A stretch of 39,933 nt of DNA, from NCBI RefSeq assembly GCF_000336875.1, contig NZ_AOJK01000072.1, forward strand, positions 548 through 40,480, given 5' to 3'. Positions within the stretch are counted from its first letter, which is position 1; every line of letters starts with the position of its first letter. This DNA comes from Halorubrum californiense DSM 19288 (GTDB taxonomy: Archaea > Halobacteriota > Halobacteria > Halobacteriales > Haloferacaceae). Below are positions 6,654-16,896 of this stretch, in pieces. Under the pieces are notes generated by a model. The model was not told the origin of the DNA, did not search any database, and worked only from the letters and a program-made list of their open reading frames with translations. Made by a program: the position numbers and the translations under genes.

Positions 6654-8876
6654 CTACTCCTCTCGCCCCGCGTACCGCTCGAAGACGTCGCCGACCGCCC
6701 GGCCCGACTCCTTCAGCCGCTCCGTGTACGCCGGTCGGTCCCACGTCTGGGGAACGTACGACAGTGCGTCGAGCCCGCCGTCCGCGCTCCCCGGGACCGC
6801 GTGCGTCAGGTTCGTCTCGGCGTCGAGCGCCGTCGCGTCGCCCCCGCCGTCCCCCGGAACGTACGAGGCCGCGGCGACGTCGATCGACTCGAACGTCTCG
6901 TAGGCGTCGAGCCCCTCGGCCCAGAAGTCCCCGAGCCGACGGCGGCGGCTCGGGTCGGCGACGTTGAGCAGCAGCCACGGGAGCCGGACCTCGACCGCGT
7001 CGTTCGACGGCGAGACGTGAACGTCGGCGAGCGAGTCGTACCGCGGGGAGTCCGGGTTCCCGTTCCCGTAGCGGAGCCCCCCCGTCTCGACCGACTCGAA
7101 CGGGACGCGCTCACCGGTTTCGGGGACGGTGTAACCCCGGTTGATCACCGTCCGCAACGGCGTGAAGTCGCCGGGGGCGGGGTCCCGGTAGCGGTCGAGG
7201 TCGAGCCCAGCGCCGGCCCCGTACTCGTACGCGAAGGCGTCGTAGCGCGGTTCGACGGTCACCCGAGAGGCGTCGGGCCCGCCGAGGCGGACGACGAAGT
7301 CGGCGGGGGCCGTCGCGTCGAGGCCGTACGGAAGGAGCCGCTCGCCGCGGTCGGTGAGACCGAGCGCGAGGAGGTAGTTGGTCGCGTCCCAGTCGGGCTC
7401 GCCGCCGAGGTCCGCGAGTTCGAGCCGGACCGAGAGGTACGCGGCGTCGCTCGTCACGCGGAGCGCCGTCAGCTCGCGGGCCCCGTCCGCGCCGTCGCCG
7501 AGCCGGACGGGGTCGCGAGCGGGCGTCGCTGCGGTCGCGTCTCGCCACGCGTCGGGCGAGCCGTCGAGCGGGACCGCGTTCGCCGGGTCGAACGCGAGCA
7601 GCCCGAACCGCTGTTCCGGCGTCTGGACGTTCGACCAGAACGGTCGACGGTTGGGGTCGGAGAACGGCGCGAAGTTCCACGTCCGCTTGAACCACTCGTC
7701 GTGCCAGCTGAAGACGATCCCGCCGGCGGTGTCGGCCTCCCGGATGTCCTCGTACATCGCGGCGAGTATCCCGCCCTGTTCTGTCTCGGTGTGGCGCCCC
7801 TGATCGCGGCCGTGAACGTCGCGCTGGGAGATCCCGCGCGAAGACGGAACGCCGAACTCGGCGACGAGCAGCGGGTGGTCGGTCGCGCCGACGAGGTCGT
7901 TCAGGTAGCCGGCGTAGCTGTTCGGCTCGCCGCGGTGGTCGACGTAGTTCGCGTACTCGGGCGTCTCGTTCAACAGCGGCGGGTAGTACGGGTACACGTG
8001 GTACGCCGCGAACGTGCCGGCCTCGGACGCGTCGGTCGCGACGACCGCGTCCGGGTCGACGGAGACGGCGTCCTCGTCGGGGAACGGCTCGTACGGGTGG
8101 TCGAGGGGGTCGGTCGTCACCCAGTTGGTGAACGCCGCGGGGCGCTGCGCGCCGTACTCGTCGGCCTCGTACGCGACGGCGGCGTCGAGGCGGGCCGCGA
8201 GCCACGCCTCGAACGGGGACCCGTCCGGCGCGGCGAGGAACTCGCCGTCGTGGCCGGTCGCCTCGGTGACCCAGTTCGTCTCGCGGACGACCGCCGGCGG
8301 CCACTCGATGCCGACGACGTAGCCGAGGACGGCGTCGCTCACGTCGGCGTCGTACGTCCCGCTGGCGTACCCGAGCTCCGGCTCGACCGTCGTCGCGCCG
8401 TGGACGGCGTCGACGACCTGCCGCATCGAGCGGTCGAACGACGGCGACAGCGACGTGGCGTCGCCCGCCTCGCGGAGGGTCTCCTCGCCGATCCAGTTGC
8501 CGTGGAGGACGTAGATCGGGTCGGCGTGCGACCGGTTGTACGCCGCGAGCGCCCGGTAGAGCGCGGGCGGGTGGACGGTGTACACGCGGACGACGTTGAC
8601 GCGCAACTCGCCCATCAGCTCCAGCCAGCGGTCGTACTCGGCGCGGGTGATCGCCGCCTCGCCGGGGAACCGGCCGGGCTTGGCCATCCCGAGGTTCACG
8701 CCGCGGACCGACAGAGAGTCGAACGCTCCTCCGTCCACCGCGACCTCGAACCCCTCGTCGCCGACGCGGAACCGGCGCGGCGGGCCCTCGTCCGAACCGA
8801 GGCCGCGGAAGCCGCAGCCGGCGGTCCCGACCGCACCGGCGACCCCGACGCGACCGAGGAATCGGCGTCTGCGCAT
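6654..8876 (-). CDS. Secreted Tat lipoprotein, glycoside hydrolase-like TIM-barrel protein
   Basis: A 740-aa protein starting MRRRRFLGRVGVAGAVGTAG followed by Cys21: a twin-arginine signal with a lipobox (TAGC), so a membrane-anchored extracellular lipoprotein. SVRGVNLGMAKPGRFPGE, then VNVVRVYTVHPP and LLVAEFGVPSS, resemble the (beta/alpha)8 barrel of GH2/GH5-like hydrolases. The Glu in AEFG is a candidate nucleophile; GGIVFSWHDEWFKRTWN closes the barrel. Roughly the last 300 residues are beta-rich and may bind sugar. An upstream in-frame ATG exists (9020), but only the 8876 start gives a signal peptide, and a TATA-like box sits 27 nt before it. It is near the GT2 synthase and may trim its polysaccharide. 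The family is inferred from motifs only. Confidence 0.7.
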   Translation of the reverse strand: MRRRRFLGRVGVAGAVGTAGCGFRGLGSDEGPPRRFRVGDEGFEVAVDGGAFDSLSVRGVNLGMAKPGRFPGEAAITRAEYDRWLELMGELRVNVVRVYTVHPPALYRALAAYNRSHADPIYVLHGNWIGEETLREAGDATSLSPSFDRSMRQVVDAVHGATTVEPELGYASGTYDADVSDAVLGYVVGIEWPPAVVRETNWVTEATGHDGEFLAAPDGSPFEAWLAARLDAAVAYEADEYGAQRPAAFTNWVTTDPLDHPYEPFPDEDAVSVDPDAVVATDASEAGTFAAYHVYPYYPPLLNETPEYANYVDHRGEPNSYAGYLNDLVGATDHPLLVAEFGVPSSRGISQRDVHGRDQGRHTETEQGGILAAMYEDIREADTAGGIVFSWHDEWFKRTWNFAPFSDPNRRPFWSNVQTPEQRFGLLAFDPANAVPLDGSPDAWRDATAATPARDPVRLGDGADGARELTALRVTSDAAYLSVRLELADLGGEPDWDATNYLLALGLTDRGERLLPYGLDATAPADFVVRLGGPDASRVTVEPRYDAFAYEYGAGAGLDLDRYRDPAPGDFTPLRTVINRGYTVPETGERVPFESVETGGLRYGNGNPDSPRYDSLADVHVSPSNDAVEVRLPWLLLNVADPSRRRRLGDFWAEGLDAYETFESIDVAAASYVPGDGGGDATALDAETNLTHAVPGSADGGLDALSYVPQTWDRPAYTERLKESGRAVGDVFERYAGREE

Positions 8877-8985: not shown

Positions 8986-10149
8986 ATGGTGTCTGACACG
9001 TCCCGTTCCGAACCGTTCAAGAGCCTGCTACAGCTGACCGCGACCGATCAGTCGACCGAGGAGCGGCTCCTGAAGGCGATAGACGTCGGCCGGGAGTACC
9101 TCGGCGTCGACAACGGCGTGCTCTCGTACACCGGCGAGGGGCGCTACGAGGTGGTCGAGACGAACATCCAGACCGGCCCCTACGCCCAGGGGGGCGTCGT
9201 CGACCTCGACGGGACGTGGTGTCGCCACGTCGTCGAAAGCGGCGAGGCGATAGGCTTCGCAGACGCGGCCGAAACCGAGTACCGCGACGACCGCGCGCTG
9301 GAGGCGACCGGGCTCCACTGCTACGTCGGCGCCGAGGTGACCGTCGACGGAGAGACGTACGGAACGCTCTGCTTCTCCGACGACGTTCCGCGAGACGATC
9401 CGATCACGGACGCCGAGCGCGACTTCGTCTCGGTGCTCGCGCGGTGGGTGAGCACCGAACTCGAACGGCAGAAACACTACGCGGAGCTGCGCGAGCAGAA
9501 CGAGCGGCTCGACGAGTTCACCGGGATCGTCGCGCACGACCTCCGGAACCCGCTGTCGGGGGCCATCGGCTTCGTCGAACTCGCGCAGGAGCGCGTCAGC
9601 GGGCAGACGGCCGAGTTCCTCGACCGCGTCCGGGGGGCGCTCGACCGGATGGAGTCGATGATCGCGGAGTGCCTGATCCTCGCGAAGGAGGGCGCCGACG
9701 TGGGCGAGCGGAGTTCGGTCGCGCTCGAACCCCTCGTCAGGGAGGCGTGGGACACGGTCCGGACGCGCGACGCGACGCTGACGGTGGACGTGGCCCCCGA
9801 GACGGCGATCGTCGCCGACGAGATGCGCCTCCGACGGCTCTTCGAGAACCTCTTCCGCAACAGCGTGGAACACGGCGGCCCGAGCGTCTCGGTGACGGTG
9901 ACCGGCGACGCGGACGGCTTCGCGGTCGCGGACGACGGGCCGGGGCTCCCGCCGGCGGTCGAGGCGGCGCTCACTGCGGCCGACGCGGAGAACGTCAAGT
10001 CGTTCGGACTCGGGCTGTTGGTCGTTCAGCGCGTGGTGACGGGCCACGGTTGGGACCTCGCCGTCGACAGCGCCGACGACGGGACGCGGTTCGCCGTGAG
10101 CGACGTCAACGCCGCGGAGCCGGTCCACGAGGCGCTGCGCTCGGACTAG
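8986..10149 (+). CDS. GAF-domain sensor histidine kinase
   Basis: A 387-aa soluble kinase. Residues about 20-165 form a GAF sensor domain (LDGTWCRHVVESGEAIG, VTVDGETYGTLCF). A short helix follows, then the HisKA motif IVAHDLRNPLSGAIG with His184. The ATPase domain has the N-box NLFRNSVEHGG, G1 VADDGPGLPP and G2 FGLGLLVVQRV. It would autophosphorylate in response to an intracellular cue and pass phosphate to a receiver. There are no membrane segments. The nearest receiver gene (13.4 kb) is broken by a stop codon. Its 3' end overlaps the convergent GT2 gene by 44 bp. Confidence 0.88.
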   Translation: MVSDTSRSEPFKSLLQLTATDQSTEERLLKAIDVGREYLGVDNGVLSYTGEGRYEVVETNIQTGPYAQGGVVDLDGTWCRHVVESGEAIGFADAAETEYRDDRALEATGLHCYVGAEVTVDGETYGTLCFSDDVPRDDPITDAERDFVSVLARWVSTELERQKHYAELREQNERLDEFTGIVAHDLRNPLSGAIGFVELAQERVSGQTAEFLDRVRGALDRMESMIAECLILAKEGADVGERSSVALEPLVREAWDTVRTRDATLTVDVAPETAIVADEMRLRRLFENLFRNSVEHGGPSVSVTVTGDADGFAVADDGPGLPPAVEAALTAADAENVKSFGLGLLVVQRVVTGHGWDLAVDSADDGTRFAVSDVNAAEPVHEALRSD

Positions 10150-12124
10150 CTGCCCCGTCCGTGACCCAGACGACCCCCTCGTCGCCGGCGCCGTCCAAGG
10201 GGTCGCGAGTCCAGACGAATCCGCCGTCACCGGGGCCGAGCGACGGGTCGGTGACCCAGACGAACCCCCCGTCGCCGGCCCCTTCCGAGAAGTCGGTCGT
10301 CGCCGCGAGCCGCGCGGATCCGTCGTCGTCGAGCGCGAGGACGAAGCCGCCGTCACTGGCGCCGAGCGACGGGTCAGTGACCCAGACGAATCCCCCGTCG
10401 CCGATCCCCTCCGAGAAGTCGGTCGTCCAGACGAATCCGCCGTCGCCGGCGCCGGCAGTCAGCTCCGGGGTCGGGACGAACCGCCCCGTGTTTTCGTCGG
10501 CCGCGATCCCGGCGAGCCAGCGGACCCCGTCCGTCTCCGGCGCGTCGACGAGCCGGTCAACCCAGACGAATCCGCCGTCCTCCGTCGACGATGCGGCCGC
10601 ACCCGTTTCGGACGCCGAATCGTCCGGTCCGGATTCGGAGACCGCCGACGCGGTCGCCGCGACGCCCGCTCCGGCGGCGCCCGCCGCCTCGGCGCTGTCG
10701 GTCCCGGCGTCGCCGAAGCCCCGCCGCTCCATGGCCCCCCACGACTGGTCGCCGCGGAGGTACTCGACCAGGCCGTGCCAGGCGACGATCGTCTTCCACT
10801 GGCGGTAGCCGAAGTTTTCTAACACGCCGTACCAGAGCAGTCGGAGGATGTCCCACGGAGACTCGTAGCGGTTGTAGCTCCACACCTCGCTGAACACGCC
10901 GAACCACGAGAGGAACACGCCGGCGCCGACCGTGAGCAGCAGGAAGACGAGGAAGAACTCGATGTTGAGGATGCCGAGGTACCACCCGAGCGGGAGCAAC
11001 ACGTAGCCGAACCCCTCGATGAGCGGGCCGAGCGCCTCGGCGGCGGTGAAGAACGGTAACACGACCGTGCCGACGCGACCGTACGCCCGACGGAAGAACA
11101 TCCGCCGGCTCGCGACGACCGTCTCTAACATTCCCCGGTACCACCGGCGGCGCTGGCGCCCCAGCGTCCGGAGCGTCTCCGGGACTTCGGTCCACGCGAC
11201 GGGCTCCGGGACGAACTCGATCCGGTAGTCCACGTCGGCGTCGGAGAGGTGTTCGTGGAGGCGGATGACCACGTCGAAGTCCTCCGTGATCGTGTCGTGC
11301 CGGTAGCCGCCGATCTCGCGGACCCGATCGGTCCGGAACACGCCGAACGCGCCGGAGATGAGGATCAACCCCTTCAGGCGGGCGAGCCCGAGCCGCCCGG
11401 AGTAGAACGCCCGCAGGTACTCCATCACCTGAACGCCCGCGAGCCCGGTCTTCGGGAGGTTGATCTCCTTGACCTGGCCGTCCTGAACGACGCAGTCGTT
11501 CGCCACGCGGATCGTGCCCCCGCTGGCGACCGTCCGCGAGGGCTCCTCGAGGAACGGCACGACGACGTCTAACAACGCGTCGCGGTCGATCACGGTGTCC
11601 GCGTCGACCGCGCAGAACAGCTCCTGATCGGTGAGCCAGACGCCGGCGTTGAGCGCGTCGCTCTTCCCGCCGTTCTCCTTGTCGACGACGAGGAGGTTCT
11701 CGTGGGTCGCGGAGCGGTACACGCCCCGGATCGGCTCCGAGGGCACGTCGTACGGCACCTCGGCGTCGACCGGACGGAGCCCGAACGCGTCTTCGAGCCG
11801 TTCGAGCGTGGCGTCCGAGGAGCCGTCGTTGACCACGACGATCTCCTGGTCGGGGTAGTTGAGCGCGAGCATCGAGCGCACGCTCTCGACGATGCTCGCC
11901 GCCTCGTTGTACGCCGGCACGACCATCGCGACGCCGGGGTAGAACGGGCTGTCGAACGCGCGGAACGACGGGGTCCACTCCGACTCGCGGACGCTGTCCC
12001 GGAGCTGTGCCAGCGCGAGCACGTGGATCAGCAGGTAGCCGACGTTGATCAGCAGGTAGTACGTGACGATGAACACCCCGGATCCGACGACGAGCGTCGT
12101 CCCGAGCGCTTCGAGCGTCGTCAT
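10106..12124 (-). CDS. Processive family 2 glycosyltransferase with repetitive C-terminal tail
   Basis: A 672-aa membrane synthase. An N-terminal membrane segment (about residues 9-35) precedes the GT2 domain: VVPAYNEAASI, VVNDGSSDAT, ENGGKSDALNAG, AVDADTVIDRDAL, TITEDFDVVIRL and QRRRWYRGM. These are the D, DxD, TED and (Q/R)xxRW motifs of cellulose-, PNAG- and hyaluronan-type synthases. Several membrane helices follow (about residues 355-430). The tail (about 515-660) has seven copies of a DGGFVW-like motif, unusual for this family. The start ATG overlaps the stop of the HEAT gene (ATGA), so translation is coupled; a longer in-frame extension would lie inside that gene. The polymer made is unknown. 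Confidence 0.82.
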   Translation of the reverse strand: MTTLEALGTTLVVGSGVFIVTYYLLINVGYLLIHVLALAQLRDSVRESEWTPSFRAFDSPFYPGVAMVVPAYNEAASIVESVRSMLALNYPDQEIVVVNDGSSDATLERLEDAFGLRPVDAEVPYDVPSEPIRGVYRSATHENLLVVDKENGGKSDALNAGVWLTDQELFCAVDADTVIDRDALLDVVVPFLEEPSRTVASGGTIRVANDCVVQDGQVKEINLPKTGLAGVQVMEYLRAFYSGRLGLARLKGLILISGAFGVFRTDRVREIGGYRHDTITEDFDVVIRLHEHLSDADVDYRIEFVPEPVAWTEVPETLRTLGRQRRRWYRGMLETVVASRRMFFRRAYGRVGTVVLPFFTAAEALGPLIEGFGYVLLPLGWYLGILNIEFFLVFLLLTVGAGVFLSWFGVFSEVWSYNRYESPWDILRLLWYGVLENFGYRQWKTIVAWHGLVEYLRGDQSWGAMERRGFGDAGTDSAEAAGAAGAGVAATASAVSESGPDDSASETGAAASSTEDGGFVWVDRLVDAPETDGVRWLAGIAADENTGRFVPTPELTAGAGDGGFVWTTDFSEGIGDGGFVWVTDPSLGASDGGFVLALDDDGSARLAATTDFSEGAGDGGFVWVTDPSLGPGDGGFVWTRDPLDGAGDEGVVWVTDGAASPSAAPRGPAPRR
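10214..10427 (-). repeat. Direct duplication (two 88-bp copies, 126-bp offset) in the GT2 tail
   Basis: Bases 10214-10301 and 10340-10427 are near-identical, offset by 126 bp (42 codons), so the frame is kept. Both encode TDFSEG-x-GDGGFVWVTDPSLG followed by another DGGFV. Single DGGFVW units also flank the pair. In-frame spacing and third-position differences indicate an expanding protein repeat under coding constraint. Confidence 0.8.
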
Positions 12125-13362
12125 CCGCGCACCTCGTCGTGGAGTCGGTCGCGGTCGCGAGAGATGTCTCGCGCGAGCCGATCGAAGCGGGCGTGCTCGA
12201 CGGCCCACGCCCACGCGACATCGAATGCGGCGGTCTCATCGGCGGGTCGACCGTGGGCGGACGCGGTTCGGTCCGCCTCGATGTCGGCGCGCGGCGGGTC
12301 GTTCGGGTCCACCGCTTCCGCCGAGGTCCCCTGTGAGACCAGCGTCTCGGCCGCGGTGACCTGTGCCCGCGCGTCGGGGTCCGCGGTCCCGGCGGTCTCG
12401 ATCGCCGCGATTGCCTCCGCGTCCCCCCACGTCCCGAGCGCTCGGTACGCGCTCGCGCGGACCGGCGGGGTCGGGTCGGCGGCGATCGCGGTGAGGTCGA
12501 CGGCGTCCCTGACCGCCCGGTTCCAACCGTACGCGCCCAGCGCCCGCCACGCGGCTGACCGCACCCTCGGGTCGGGGCTCGACAGCGACCCGACGGCCCA
12601 CGAGAGATCGGCGTCCCCGACCACGGTGGTGAGGTGGCGGACGACGAGCAGCACCTGCCGCTGGAGCGCCGGATCCCAGCCGTCGAAGTCGGCGGCCGCC
12701 CGGTCGAAGAACGGCCCGGGGTCGCGCTCGGCGACGCGGTACAGCGTGTCGACACCGAACACCGAGAACGACTCCGGCTCGTCGCGGAGGAGCAGGTCGA
12801 CGCCGGTCGCCGCGCAGTCATCCGTCTCGGCCGCATACAGCACCCGAGCGGCCGCGGCGCGCTCGCGCGGCGTCTCGAGACAGTGCGCTCTGAGCAGGTC
12901 GCGGTCGGGCGCGTCGTGGAGCAGGGCGAGCCAGACGAGCGCGTGGGTGCGGTCCCAGTAGCCGCCGTTCGCGATCTCGCGGCGGGCCCGCTCGTGGACG
13001 CCCAGCGCCCGCCCGAGTCCGGCCAGCGCGTCGGCGTCGCGGCCGTCGAGCTCGCGGAGGTACACGTCGAGCAGCGACTCCAGTTCTTCTCGCTCCGCCG
13101 CCGAGACCCCGGCGACCCACTCGTCCCACGCCGGGTCGTCGCGGCCGTAGAGCCGGTCGAGTAGCTCCGACCGCAGCGCGGCGCGCATCGGGACGCGCTG
13201 CCGGCGTCGCCGGGCCGTAAAAACCGAGTAGCTGAGCGTGAGGACCGCCACCGCGAACAGCAGCGAGCCGAGCACGACGACGGCGAGCGAGAGCGTCCCC
13301 GACTGGGGGCCTGCGAGCGGACCGTACACCGACGCCGCCGTGGTCGAGGCCGCGAGCGTCAC
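12121..13362 (-). CDS. Membrane-anchored HEAT-repeat protein
   Basis: A 413-aa protein that starts with GTG 3 nt after the receiver-gene stop. Residues about 23-48 form one membrane helix (TLSLAVVVLGSLLFAVAVLT) followed by the basic RRRRQR, so the large C-terminal part is cytoplasmic. That part is all-alpha. Two clear HEAT units are visible: SPDPRVRSAAWRALGAYGW and DPTPPVRASAYRALGTWGD (about residues 255-320). HEAT proteins are scaffolds; the position between a receiver gene and a GT2 synthase, with an ATGA overlap to the synthase, suggests that it links the regulator to the synthase. The open frame extends further upstream in a different frame from the receiver gene, but that part is an arginine-rich shadow. 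Confidence 0.68.
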   Translation of the reverse strand: MTLAASTTAASVYGPLAGPQSGTLSLAVVVLGSLLFAVAVLTLSYSVFTARRRRQRVPMRAALRSELLDRLYGRDDPAWDEWVAGVSAAEREELESLLDVYLRELDGRDADALAGLGRALGVHERARREIANGGYWDRTHALVWLALLHDAPDRDLLRAHCLETPRERAAAARVLYAAETDDCAATGVDLLLRDEPESFSVFGVDTLYRVAERDPGPFFDRAAADFDGWDPALQRQVLLVVRHLTTVVGDADLSWAVGSLSSPDPRVRSAAWRALGAYGWNRAVRDAVDLTAIAADPTPPVRASAYRALGTWGDAEAIAAIETAGTADPDARAQVTAAETLVSQGTSAEAVDPNDPPRADIEADRTASAHGRPADETAAFDVAWAWAVEHARFDRLARDISRDRDRLHDEVRG

Positions 13363-13364
13363 GG

Positions 13365-13745
13365 TTACGCCTCGACCAGTCGGTCGATCCGGACCAGCAG
13401 TTCGTTCGGACTGAACGGCTTCGTGAGGTACTCGTCGGCGCCGGAGTCGAGCCCCTTCAGCACGTCGGCCTCCTGGCCGCGCGAGGTGAGCATCACGACG
13501 GGGACCTCCGGGTCGACCGCGAGCTCGCCGCGCCGGATCGTCCGCAGCAGCTGAGTGCCCTTCATCCGCGGCATCATCACGTCGAGGACGACCACGTCGG
13601 GGGCGGCGTCGGCCTCGTCTAACGCCTGCCGGCACTCCTCGCCGTCGTGACACACCGTCAGGTCGTACCCCGCGTTCGACAGTTTTTACTGGAGGATCGA
13701 CCGGATCGTCTCGTCGTCGTCCGCGATGACGGCCGATTTAGCCAC
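13365..13745 (-). pseudogene. Response regulator receiver domain, interrupted by an in-frame TAA
   Basis: Reading from GTG 13745 gives VAKSAVIADDDETIRSILQ, then TAA (13688-13686), then KLSNAGYDLTVCHDGEECRQ and the rest of a receiver domain in the same frame. The acidic pair lies before the stop; the phosphorylated Asp (VVVLDVMMPRMKG), the conserved Thr (VVMLTSRG) and Lys (YLTKPFSPNE) lie after it. Without the stop this would be an ordinary 126-aa single-domain regulator. A restart at GTG 13655 would lack the acidic pair and first strand. It is either a recent nonsense mutation, a base error, or read through. The HEAT and GT2 genes follow in the same direction. Confidence 0.72.
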
Positions 13746-13806
13746 ATTGGAAGTACGTGCGGTTGGCTACTTTACTTTTCGGCACCGACGCTCGGTCCCG
13801 CGAACG

Positions 13807-13814
13807 ATTTAAAT
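13807..13814 (+). promoter_or_regulatory. TATA box of the nucleotidyltransferase-glmS operon
   Basis: ATTTAAAT is centred 27 nt upstream of ATG 13838, the expected spacing for a leaderless haloarchaeal transcript. It supports 13838 as the start rather than the in-frame codon at 13757. Confidence 0.6.
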
Positions 13815-13837
13815 CGCGGCGGACAGACCGTTCTCGT

Positions 13838-15013
13838 ATGGGAATCGACTCCGTAACCGCGGTGATCCTCGCCGCGGGCGAGGGACGGCGCCTGGCGCCG
13901 CTGACGAACCGGCGGCCGAAGCCGATGGTGCCGGTGGCGAATCGGCCTCTACTCGAACACGTGATCGAGGCGATCACGGCGACGGCGATCGACCGGATCG
14001 TCCTCGTCGTCGGCTACGAACAGGAGCGCATCCGGAACCACTTCGGCGACGGCGACGACTGGGGGGTGACGATCGAGTACGTCGAGCAGTCGACCCAGCT
14101 GGGAACCGGCCACGCCGTGTTACAAGCCGAGCCGGTCGTCGACGGCCCGTTCGTCGTGCTCAACGGCGATCGGATCGTCGACCCCGCCGTCGTCTCGCAC
14201 GTCCGCGACCGAGCGATCGACGACGACCTCCCCGCGATGACTGTCACGACCGCCGCGAACCCGCGCCAGTACGGCGTGGTGACGCTCGACGGCGACCGCG
14301 TGACCGACATCGACGAGAAGCCGGAGGGGACGGTGGAGACGAACCAGATCAACGCCGGCGTCTACGCCTTCTCCCCGGCCGTCTTCGACGCGATCCGCGA
14401 GACGCACGTGGCCGGCGAGCTGGCGATCACGGCGACACTCAACGATCTCGCCGCGACCGAGACGCTGTCGGCCGTCCGGTACGACGGCCGCTGGCTCGAC
14501 GTGTCGAACCTGTGGGACCTCCTGACCGTGAACGCGGCACTGATCGGTGATTCTGGGGCGTCGAACGCCGACGGTCCCGCCTTTGGCGACTCCGTGACCG
14601 TCGCCGACGACGCCGCGCTCGCGGGCAACGTCCGCGTGGGGCCGAACGTGACGATCGGCGGCAGCACCGCTGTCGGCAGTAACGCGACCATCGAGGCGGG
14701 CGCGGTGGTGGAGAACGCCGTGATCTTCCCCGACGCCGTGATCGGCGCCGGGGCGGTAGTCAGGGACGCGATCGTCGCCGGCAACGCCCGGATTGGTCCG
14801 AACGCGACGGTCGCCGGCGGTCCGGCGACCGTGGTCGTGGGCGACGCCGTCCACCGCGGCGTTGAGCTCGGCGGCGTGGTCGGCGACAACGCCACCGTCG
14901 GGAGCGGCGCGACGCTCGCCGACGGCGCGATCGTCGGCGACGACGTCACCGCCGACGCGGGGGTCGTGATCGACGGACGAGTCGAGTCGGGCGCGGTCGT
15001 TCGGAGGGGGTAA
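13838..15013 (+). CDS. Sugar-1-phosphate nucleotidyltransferase with left-handed beta-helix
   Basis: A 391-aa protein. TAVILAAGEGRRLAPLTN (residues 6-23), RRPKPMVPV and FVVLNGDRIVD are the nucleotidyltransferase signatures. YGVVTLDGDRVTDIDEKP and RWLDVSNLWDLLTVN complete that domain (to about residue 235). Hexapeptide repeats follow to the end (for example GPNVTIGGSTAVGSNATI). Unlike the enzyme at 5.4 kb it lacks the NLRHD and GRRKLGA segments, so an acetyltransferase activity is doubtful. It ends 2 bp before glmS, so it probably supplies an NDP-amino sugar or NDP-hexose in the same pathway. The nucleotide and sugar cannot be assigned. Confidence 0.82.
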   Translation: MGIDSVTAVILAAGEGRRLAPLTNRRPKPMVPVANRPLLEHVIEAITATAIDRIVLVVGYEQERIRNHFGDGDDWGVTIEYVEQSTQLGTGHAVLQAEPVVDGPFVVLNGDRIVDPAVVSHVRDRAIDDDLPAMTVTTAANPRQYGVVTLDGDRVTDIDEKPEGTVETNQINAGVYAFSPAVFDAIRETHVAGELAITATLNDLAATETLSAVRYDGRWLDVSNLWDLLTVNAALIGDSGASNADGPAFGDSVTVADDAALAGNVRVGPNVTIGGSTAVGSNATIEAGAVVENAVIFPDAVIGAGAVVRDAIVAGNARIGPNATVAGGPATVVVGDAVHRGVELGGVVGDNATVGSGATLADGAIVGDDVTADAGVVIDGRVESGAVVRRG

Positions 15014-15015
15014 CC

Positions 15016-16896
15016 ATGTGTGGGATCAGCGGCTACATCGGGGAAGGTATCGCGCCGGCCGACGGAGAGTCGGCGGCGGGCGACGGCGCCGCGGGTGACG
15101 GAGGCGGGTTCGCCCGCGTGGGCGACATCGTCCACGAGGGGCTCCACAATCTAGAGTACCGCGGCTACGACTCGGCGGGGGTCGCGCTCGTCGGCGAGGC
15201 GAGCGGGCTCACCGTTGCGAAGCGGTCGGGCGAGGTCGACAACCTCACCGTGCCCGACGTGGCCGACGCGGCGCTCGGGATCGGACACACGCGCTGGAGC
15301 ACGCACGGTCCGCCGACGGACGAGAACGCTCACCCGCACACCGACTGTGTCGGCGACATCGCCGTCGTCCACAATGGGATCGTCGAGAACCACGAGGCGC
15401 TCAAGGCGGAGCTGTCCGACCACGAGTTCACGAGCGACACCGACACCGAGGTCATTCCGCACCTGATCGAGGAGGAACTCGCGGCGGCGTCCGACGCGGG
15501 CGACCTCCTCGACGCGGTGCGGGCCGTCGAGAGCCGGTTGGAGGGGAGCTACGCGATCTGCGCGGTCCGCGAGGACGACGACCGGATCGTCGTGGCGCGT
15601 CGGGGCAGCCCCCTCGTGTTGGGCCATGACGAGGACGCCACCTTCGTCGCCAGCGACGTGACGGCGTTCCTCGAACACACCCGGGACGCGACCTACCTCG
15701 AAGACGGCGACGTGGCATCGCTGTCGGCCGAGGGCGTCGAGGTCTACGCCGACGGCGAGCTGGTCGACCGCGAGACGGAGACGGTGACGTGGGAGGCCGA
15801 CGCGGCCGAGAAGGGCGGCTACGAACACTACATGCGGAAAGAGATCCACGAGCAGCCGGAGTCGCTGCGCCAGACCATCGCGGGACGGCTCGACGTCGAC
15901 GCCGGCGACGCCGACCTCGACACCTCGTTCCCGCCGGGCTTCCTCGCCGACCTCGAGGAGATCCAGATCGTCGCGTGCGGTACCTCCAACTACGCGGGCC
16001 GCTACGCCGCGCAGCTGTTCGAGGACCTGTCCGGCGTGCGCGCGACCGTCGAGACCGCGAGCGAGTACGAGTTCGGCGCGGGCCGCAGCGCCGACCGCAC
16101 GCTCGTCGTCGCGGTGACCCAGAGCGGCGAGACCGCCGACACGCTCGGTGCGATCCGCCGCGCGAACGCGGCCGGGGCGCGGACGTTCGCCGTGACGAAC
16201 ACGCTCGGTAGCACCGTCACGCGCGAGGTGGACGACACCGCGTTCATTCGGGCCGGTCCCGAGATCGGCGTCGCGGCGACGAAGACGTTCGCCTCGCAGG
16301 TGGCGACCCTCGCGATGCTCGCGGTGGCGATCGGCCGCGAGCGCGGCGCGCTGGCCGCCGCGGACGCGCGCCCCGTGTTGGAGGGACTCCGTGACCTGCC
16401 CGGCGCGGTCCAGCAGGTGCTCGACAACGAGGACGCGGTGCGCGAGGCCGCGACCGAGTACGGCGACAGCGAGGCATTCTTCTTCGTCGGGCGGCAGCTC
16501 GGCGTCCCCGTGGCGCTGGAGGGCGCGCTGAAGCTCAAGGAGATCTCCTACGACCACGCCGAGGGGTTCGCGGCCGGTGAGTTGAAGCACGGTCCGCTGG
16601 CGCTGGTGACGCCGGAGACGCCCGTGCTGGCCGTCCTGACCGAGGGTGGACGCGCCGACGAGACGATGAACAACGTCACCGAGGCGCAGACGCGGGGGGC
16701 GCCCGCGATCGGCTGTGTGTCGGCGGGCGACAAGTACGCCACGCTGGACGTGTCGCTGCCGGTTCCAGACGTTGGGGTCGTCGAACCGCTCGTCGCGAAC
16801 GTCTACCTCCAGCTGTTCGCGTACCACGTGGCGAATGATAAAGGCCGGTCGATCGACAAGCCGCGGAACCTGGCGAAGAGCGTCACCGTGGAGTAA
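15016..16896 (+). CDS. glmS: Glutamine--fructose-6-phosphate aminotransferase (isomerizing)
   Basis: A 626-aa enzyme. MCGISGYIG puts the catalytic Cys at position 2 after Met removal. LEYRGYDSAGVAL, GHTRWSTHG and VVHNGIVENH define the glutaminase domain. ACGTSNYAGRYAAQLFEDL, VTQSGETADT and KTFASQ belong to the two SIS isomerase domains; LKEISYDHAEGFAAGELKHG is the usual late motif, and the end LAKSVTVE is the family C-terminus. It converts fructose-6-P and glutamine to glucosamine-6-P, the entry to UDP-GlcNAc. An acidic, Gly/Ala-rich insertion of about 20-25 residues follows MCGISGYIG. It is in an operon with the nucleotidyltransferase 2 bp upstream. Confidence 0.93.
   Translation: MCGISGYIGEGIAPADGESAAGDGAAGDGGGFARVGDIVHEGLHNLEYRGYDSAGVALVGEASGLTVAKRSGEVDNLTVPDVADAALGIGHTRWSTHGPPTDENAHPHTDCVGDIAVVHNGIVENHEALKAELSDHEFTSDTDTEVIPHLIEEELAAASDAGDLLDAVRAVESRLEGSYAICAVREDDDRIVVARRGSPLVLGHDEDATFVASDVTAFLEHTRDATYLEDGDVASLSAEGVEVYADGELVDRETETVTWEADAAEKGGYEHYMRKEIHEQPESLRQTIAGRLDVDAGDADLDTSFPPGFLADLEEIQIVACGTSNYAGRYAAQLFEDLSGVRATVETASEYEFGAGRSADRTLVVAVTQSGETADTLGAIRRANAAGARTFAVTNTLGSTVTREVDDTAFIRAGPEIGVAATKTFASQVATLAMLAVAIGRERGALAAADARPVLEGLRDLPGAVQQVLDNEDAVREAATEYGDSEAFFFVGRQLGVPVALEGALKLKEISYDHAEGFAAGELKHGPLALVTPETPVLAVLTEGGRADETMNNVTEAQTRGAPAIGCVSAGDKYATLDVSLPVPDVGVVEPLVANVYLQLFAYHVANDKGRSIDKPRNLAKSVTVE

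Follow-up and report, generated by a model that had tools for sequence, protein, structure and literature searches.

A private nonsense codon in the receiver gene of a conserved receiver–HEAT–GT2 operon of Halorubrum californiense, probably a recent null allele

The window, that is, the whole stretch of 39,933 nt analyzed here, lies on contig C72 of the draft genome of Halorubrum californiense DSM 19288 (G000; 83 contigs, 95.6% complete) and contains an interrupted gene of a single-domain response regulator (receiver), followed on the same strand by genes of a HEAT-repeat protein and a membrane GT2 (Table 1). The receiver frame, read from 13745 to 13365 on the minus strand, translates as VAKSAVIADDDETIRSILQ*KLSNAGYDLTV..., which places the TAA at codon 20, in agreement with the earlier note on this DNA; the proper stop of the gene is at 13367–13365, and the frame is otherwise open. 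Codon usage is coding-like on both sides of the TAA (scores of +0.30 before and +0.33 after it), and hence the frame is not a chance ORF. Translated through the TAA, it retains the acidic pair D9/D10, the phospho-acceptor D55, T87, and K109, so that the description of a normal receiver on either side of the stop holds, key residues included. These residues and the fold match liken the gene to CheY-type single-domain response regulators (PF00072), without an output domain, but here it is broken after residue 19, and due to the TAA no uninterrupted sequence yields the whole PF00072 domain. The A-rich element AAAAGTAAAGT, found upstream of the gene in closer orthologues, is retained. An out-of-frame ATG private to this genome (window 13743–13747) overlaps the GTG start of the receiver (CCAATGTGG).

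Table 1. The receiver gene, features within it, and neighboring genes (positions in the window)
Feature	Position	Strand	Basis
Single-domain response-regulator (receiver) gene, interrupted	13365..13745	-	translation, Pfam match
Private TAA at codon 20	13686..13688	-	aligned orthologues: Tyr in 14/15 closest genomes, His in 1/15
GTG restart ORF, 96 codons, without beta-1/alpha-1 and the acidic pair	13365..13655	-	Pfam match
HEAT-repeat protein, N-terminal hydrophobic stretch, GTG start 2 bases past the receiver stop	12121..13362	-	
PgaC/IcaA-like membrane GT2, start overlapping the HEAT stop (ATGA), C-terminal DGGFVW repeat tail	10106..12124	-	
GAF-HisKA-HATPase sensor kinase, convergent with GT2, candidate partner kinase	8986..10149	+	
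GlmU-like sugar-1-P nucleotidyltransferase, divergent neighbor	13838..15013	+	
GlmS-like glutamine-fructose-6-P aminotransferase	15016..16896	+	

Comparison with orthologues from relatives supports the earlier statement that the HEAT and GT2 genes are intact, and the gene of the candidate partner kinase is intact as well. The order receiver, HEAT, GT2 is kept in Halorubrum relatives and also in several further genera of haloarchaea, and the same order, with a HEAT-like gene in the middle, is observed in the bacterium Halanaerobium saccharolyticum (L066 1468–4337), where GT2 is 42% identical and the module is followed by a GGDEF response regulator. Judging by gene order, the receiver–HEAT–GT2 module is common to halophilic archaea and bacteria; we have found no description of it in the literature.

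The best named NCBIfam match of GT2 is TIGR03937 (PgaC/IcaA), with 137.3 bits, that is, below the cut-off of 422.3. The protein shares with poly-beta-1,6-GlcNAc synthases of this family the membrane GT2 core and the GlmS-, GlmM-, and GlmU-like neighbors, and differs from them in the C-terminal DGGFVW repeat tail and in having receiver and HEAT genes as partners. As the GlmM-, GlmU-, and GlmS-like genes flank the kinase/GT2/HEAT/receiver block, the product may be a GlcNAc-type polymer. The tail (window 10157–10454) is built of about seven repeats, each of 45 bases and coding for a unit similar to GDGGFVWVTDPS, and the GT2 open frame is far longer in genomes G001 and G005 (1121–1137 aa). A large secreted protein of the Tat/lipobox type (window 6654–8873) adjoins the kinase; it is 83–88% conserved in relatives and has no match in Pfam or NCBIfam.

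Codon 20 was compared in the 17 closest rows of the receiver alignment, all from the same genus, with amino-acid identity of 68–97%; since L010 and L064, as well as L017 and L065, are the same loci, these rows represent 15 distinct genomes. The records of H. lipolyticum and H. aquaticum coincide at the receiver locus with two of these Halorubrum genomes. The codon encodes tyrosine in 16 of the 17 rows and histidine in the remaining one. The comparison with close strains suggested in the earlier note thus yields a sense codon in all 15 closest genomes with an orthologue, and the stop is private to H. californiense. The orthologues align across the TAA without gaps; in less closely related receivers, the residue at this position varies. 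Where H. californiense has ATCCTCCAG TAA AAACTGTCG, the sister genome G010 reads ATCCTCCAG TAC AAACTGTCG, and in this identical context the TAA amounts to one private C-to-A change. The two receiver genes differ in 11 codons, with dN 0.011, dS 0.078, and dN/dS 0.14 when the TAA is left out. At receiver columns where the other five compared genomes agree, the TAA is the sole private amino-acid change, and comparison with relatives reveals no other lesion in the gene. The sequence past the stop shows no decay, and hence the stop is either of very recent origin or an artifact. The gene has no backup copy, as the closest of the other receivers encoded in the genome shares only about 38% identity with it, and no copy of the receiver–HEAT–GT2 operon was found in the plasmid records.

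We consider it probable that the receiver heading this conserved operon was inactivated recently by a nonsense mutation private to this genome, in which the Tyr codon TAC at codon 20 became TAA. Such an allele shares with ordinary recent nonsense pseudogenes the private single-base stop, the well-kept frame, and the intact orthologues in relatives, and differs from them in nothing essential, the base being that of the draft consensus. The main rival to the null allele is a base error: the TAA may come from the consensus or assembly, or be a minority variant, the living cell having a sense codon. This is distinctly less likely, yet has to be taken seriously, as we deal with a single base, the only lesion of the gene, in one draft assembly.

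For an estimate of the frequency of such breaks, three contigs of H. californiense (520 kb) and 400 kb of the complete genome of a relative, G021, were scanned in both directions (about 166 and 172 coding-like genes, respectively) using a codon-usage filter, and the rows that passed it were inspected manually; most proved to be antisense or to lie upstream of true starts. In H. californiense, the scan revealed three clear cases of a private nonsense codon due to a single base, the receiver TAA among them. The other two, which add to the case for an error, are TGG-to-TGA changes in genes of an MFS transporter (C25:68467; tryptophan in 11 of 11 relatives checked) and a small membrane protein (C25:about 76302; compared with G021 only). 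In the same scan no clear private nonsense codon was found in G021 relative to H. californiense, the difference of three versus zero being not significant. Three private nonsense codons in about 166 genes, with none in the reverse direction, are compatible with a consensus that contains a moderate number of errors. Several first-pass candidates for interruption were rejected because the gene truly ended there (e.g., at C72:112959) or two genes lay side by side. A coiled-coil ORF with a TAG on C41 was left out of the count, because of the low similarity of its relatives (only about 45–61%) and the variability of the site. The same contig carries a copper-oxidase-like gene (85226) that, with a TGA and then an apparent loss of frame, looks like an older pseudogene.

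On the other hand, several comparisons count against an error-prone assembly. In rpoB, rpoA1, and EF-2 (6 kb), compared over forward-oriented rows, that is, a part of the genomes, it shows one private amino-acid change, fewer than many aligned genomes of the genus, while an error rate giving three nonsense codons would predict about three such core-gene changes (a rough estimate, not a decisive one). The private nonsynonymous/synonymous ratio over ten window genes is 0.63, compared to 0.38–0.60 in five relatives, and is close to the 0.60 of G024. Unverified frameshift-like breaks are no more common than in the control genome (two versus four in G021). Hence, we see no strong indication that the assembly is noisy, and an isolated error is possible.

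Two further explanations accept the stop as real and assume that some receiver product is still made. A shorter product restarting at the GTG at 13655 could be made and functional, e.g., as a phosphorylation-independent ligand of HEAT. The 96-codon ORF pointed out in the earlier note does exist and retains most of the receiver fold, but it matches the Pfam Response_reg profile (PF00072) from profile position 29 onward only, and hence beta-1 and alpha-1 are cut off together with D9/D10. The acidic pair of receivers binds Mg2+, as needed for phosphorylation, and the restart product, lacking it, could not be phosphorylated. Moreover, this GTG is a valine codon inside the domain, and the alignment of the orthologues begins at the upstream start. 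We regard a functional restart as improbable.

Slightly less credible still is programmed or suppressor-mediated read-through of the UAA, which would yield some full-length receiver. The frame downstream of the TAA is perfectly preserved, as read-through would have it, but a mutation of very recent date would leave it equally intact. The stop is absent from all 15 closest genomes, and thus nothing points to selection for the TAA. Forty-five tRNAs were found, with tRNA-Trp and a few others unrecovered; all have standard anticodons, none of them UUA, CUA, or UCA, and tRNA-Tyr has the normal GTA. Demonstrated recoding in archaea is limited to selenocysteine, pyrrolysine, and –1 frameshifting, according to a 2021 review (PMC8211752). 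Read-through is thus unsupported: we found no paralogue that could serve as a backup, no tRNA reading the stop, and no relative sharing it. Least likely of all is part-time decoding of the UAA with the receiver dosage set by read-through, and we know of no such case in archaea. Thus, out of the three readings listed in the earlier note, very recent decay and error are supported by the private C-to-A change and the sense codon in the sister genome, whereas the comparison lends no support to read-through. The most likely explanation is an ordinary null mutation of very recent date, or an error of sequencing, rather than a new decoding trick.

If the null allele is real, translation would end after 19 residues and no phosphorylatable receiver would be made. 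We infer that in intact relatives the neighboring GAF kinase would phosphorylate the receiver, which would then dock on the membrane-anchored HEAT scaffold and switch the poly-GlcNAc-synthase-like GT2; in H. californiense this kinase–receiver–GT2 switch would be cut. A possible loss of phosphorelay input to the module, suggested in the earlier note, is a reasonable reading, and perhaps an understated one, as the amounts of HEAT and GT2 may drop too. With a gap of two bases between receiver and HEAT and an ATGA overlap between HEAT and GT2, the three genes have a spacing suited to translational coupling, and so the stop would probably lower translation of HEAT and, through HEAT, of GT2. This agrees with data on Haloferax volcanii, where stops introduced early into the first gene showed strict coupling of overlapping pairs to be nearly universal; across H. 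volcanii and Escherichia coli, it held for 13 of the 14 such pairs tested (PMC6728339). The receiver-to-HEAT step is less certain, as a two-base gap is not an overlap.

By itself, a receiver null allele is an unremarkable case of a regulatory gene being lost. Its main use is as a natural receiver knock-out in a conserved module with a possible role in the control of extracellular polysaccharide of haloarchaea; provided that the stop is real, comparison of this strain with intact relatives would show the role of the receiver.

The sister genome G010 is closer to H. californiense over a part of the locus than in the flanks. The kinase, GT2, HEAT, receiver, and second GlmU genes (window 8986–15013) have dS of 0.07–0.12 to G010, much below the 0.27–0.45 of the flanking genes (first GlmU, GH, GlmS, and an epimerase). 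This difference suggests that the block from the kinase to the second GlmU has been recently exchanged between the two lineages. The receiver of G010 (L145 3538–3161) carries H33L and, in beta-5, L107P (LTKPF), proline being present at this position in 1 of 104 aligned receivers. Unusual changes in the receivers of both sisters may reflect relaxed constraint in this clade, or chance.
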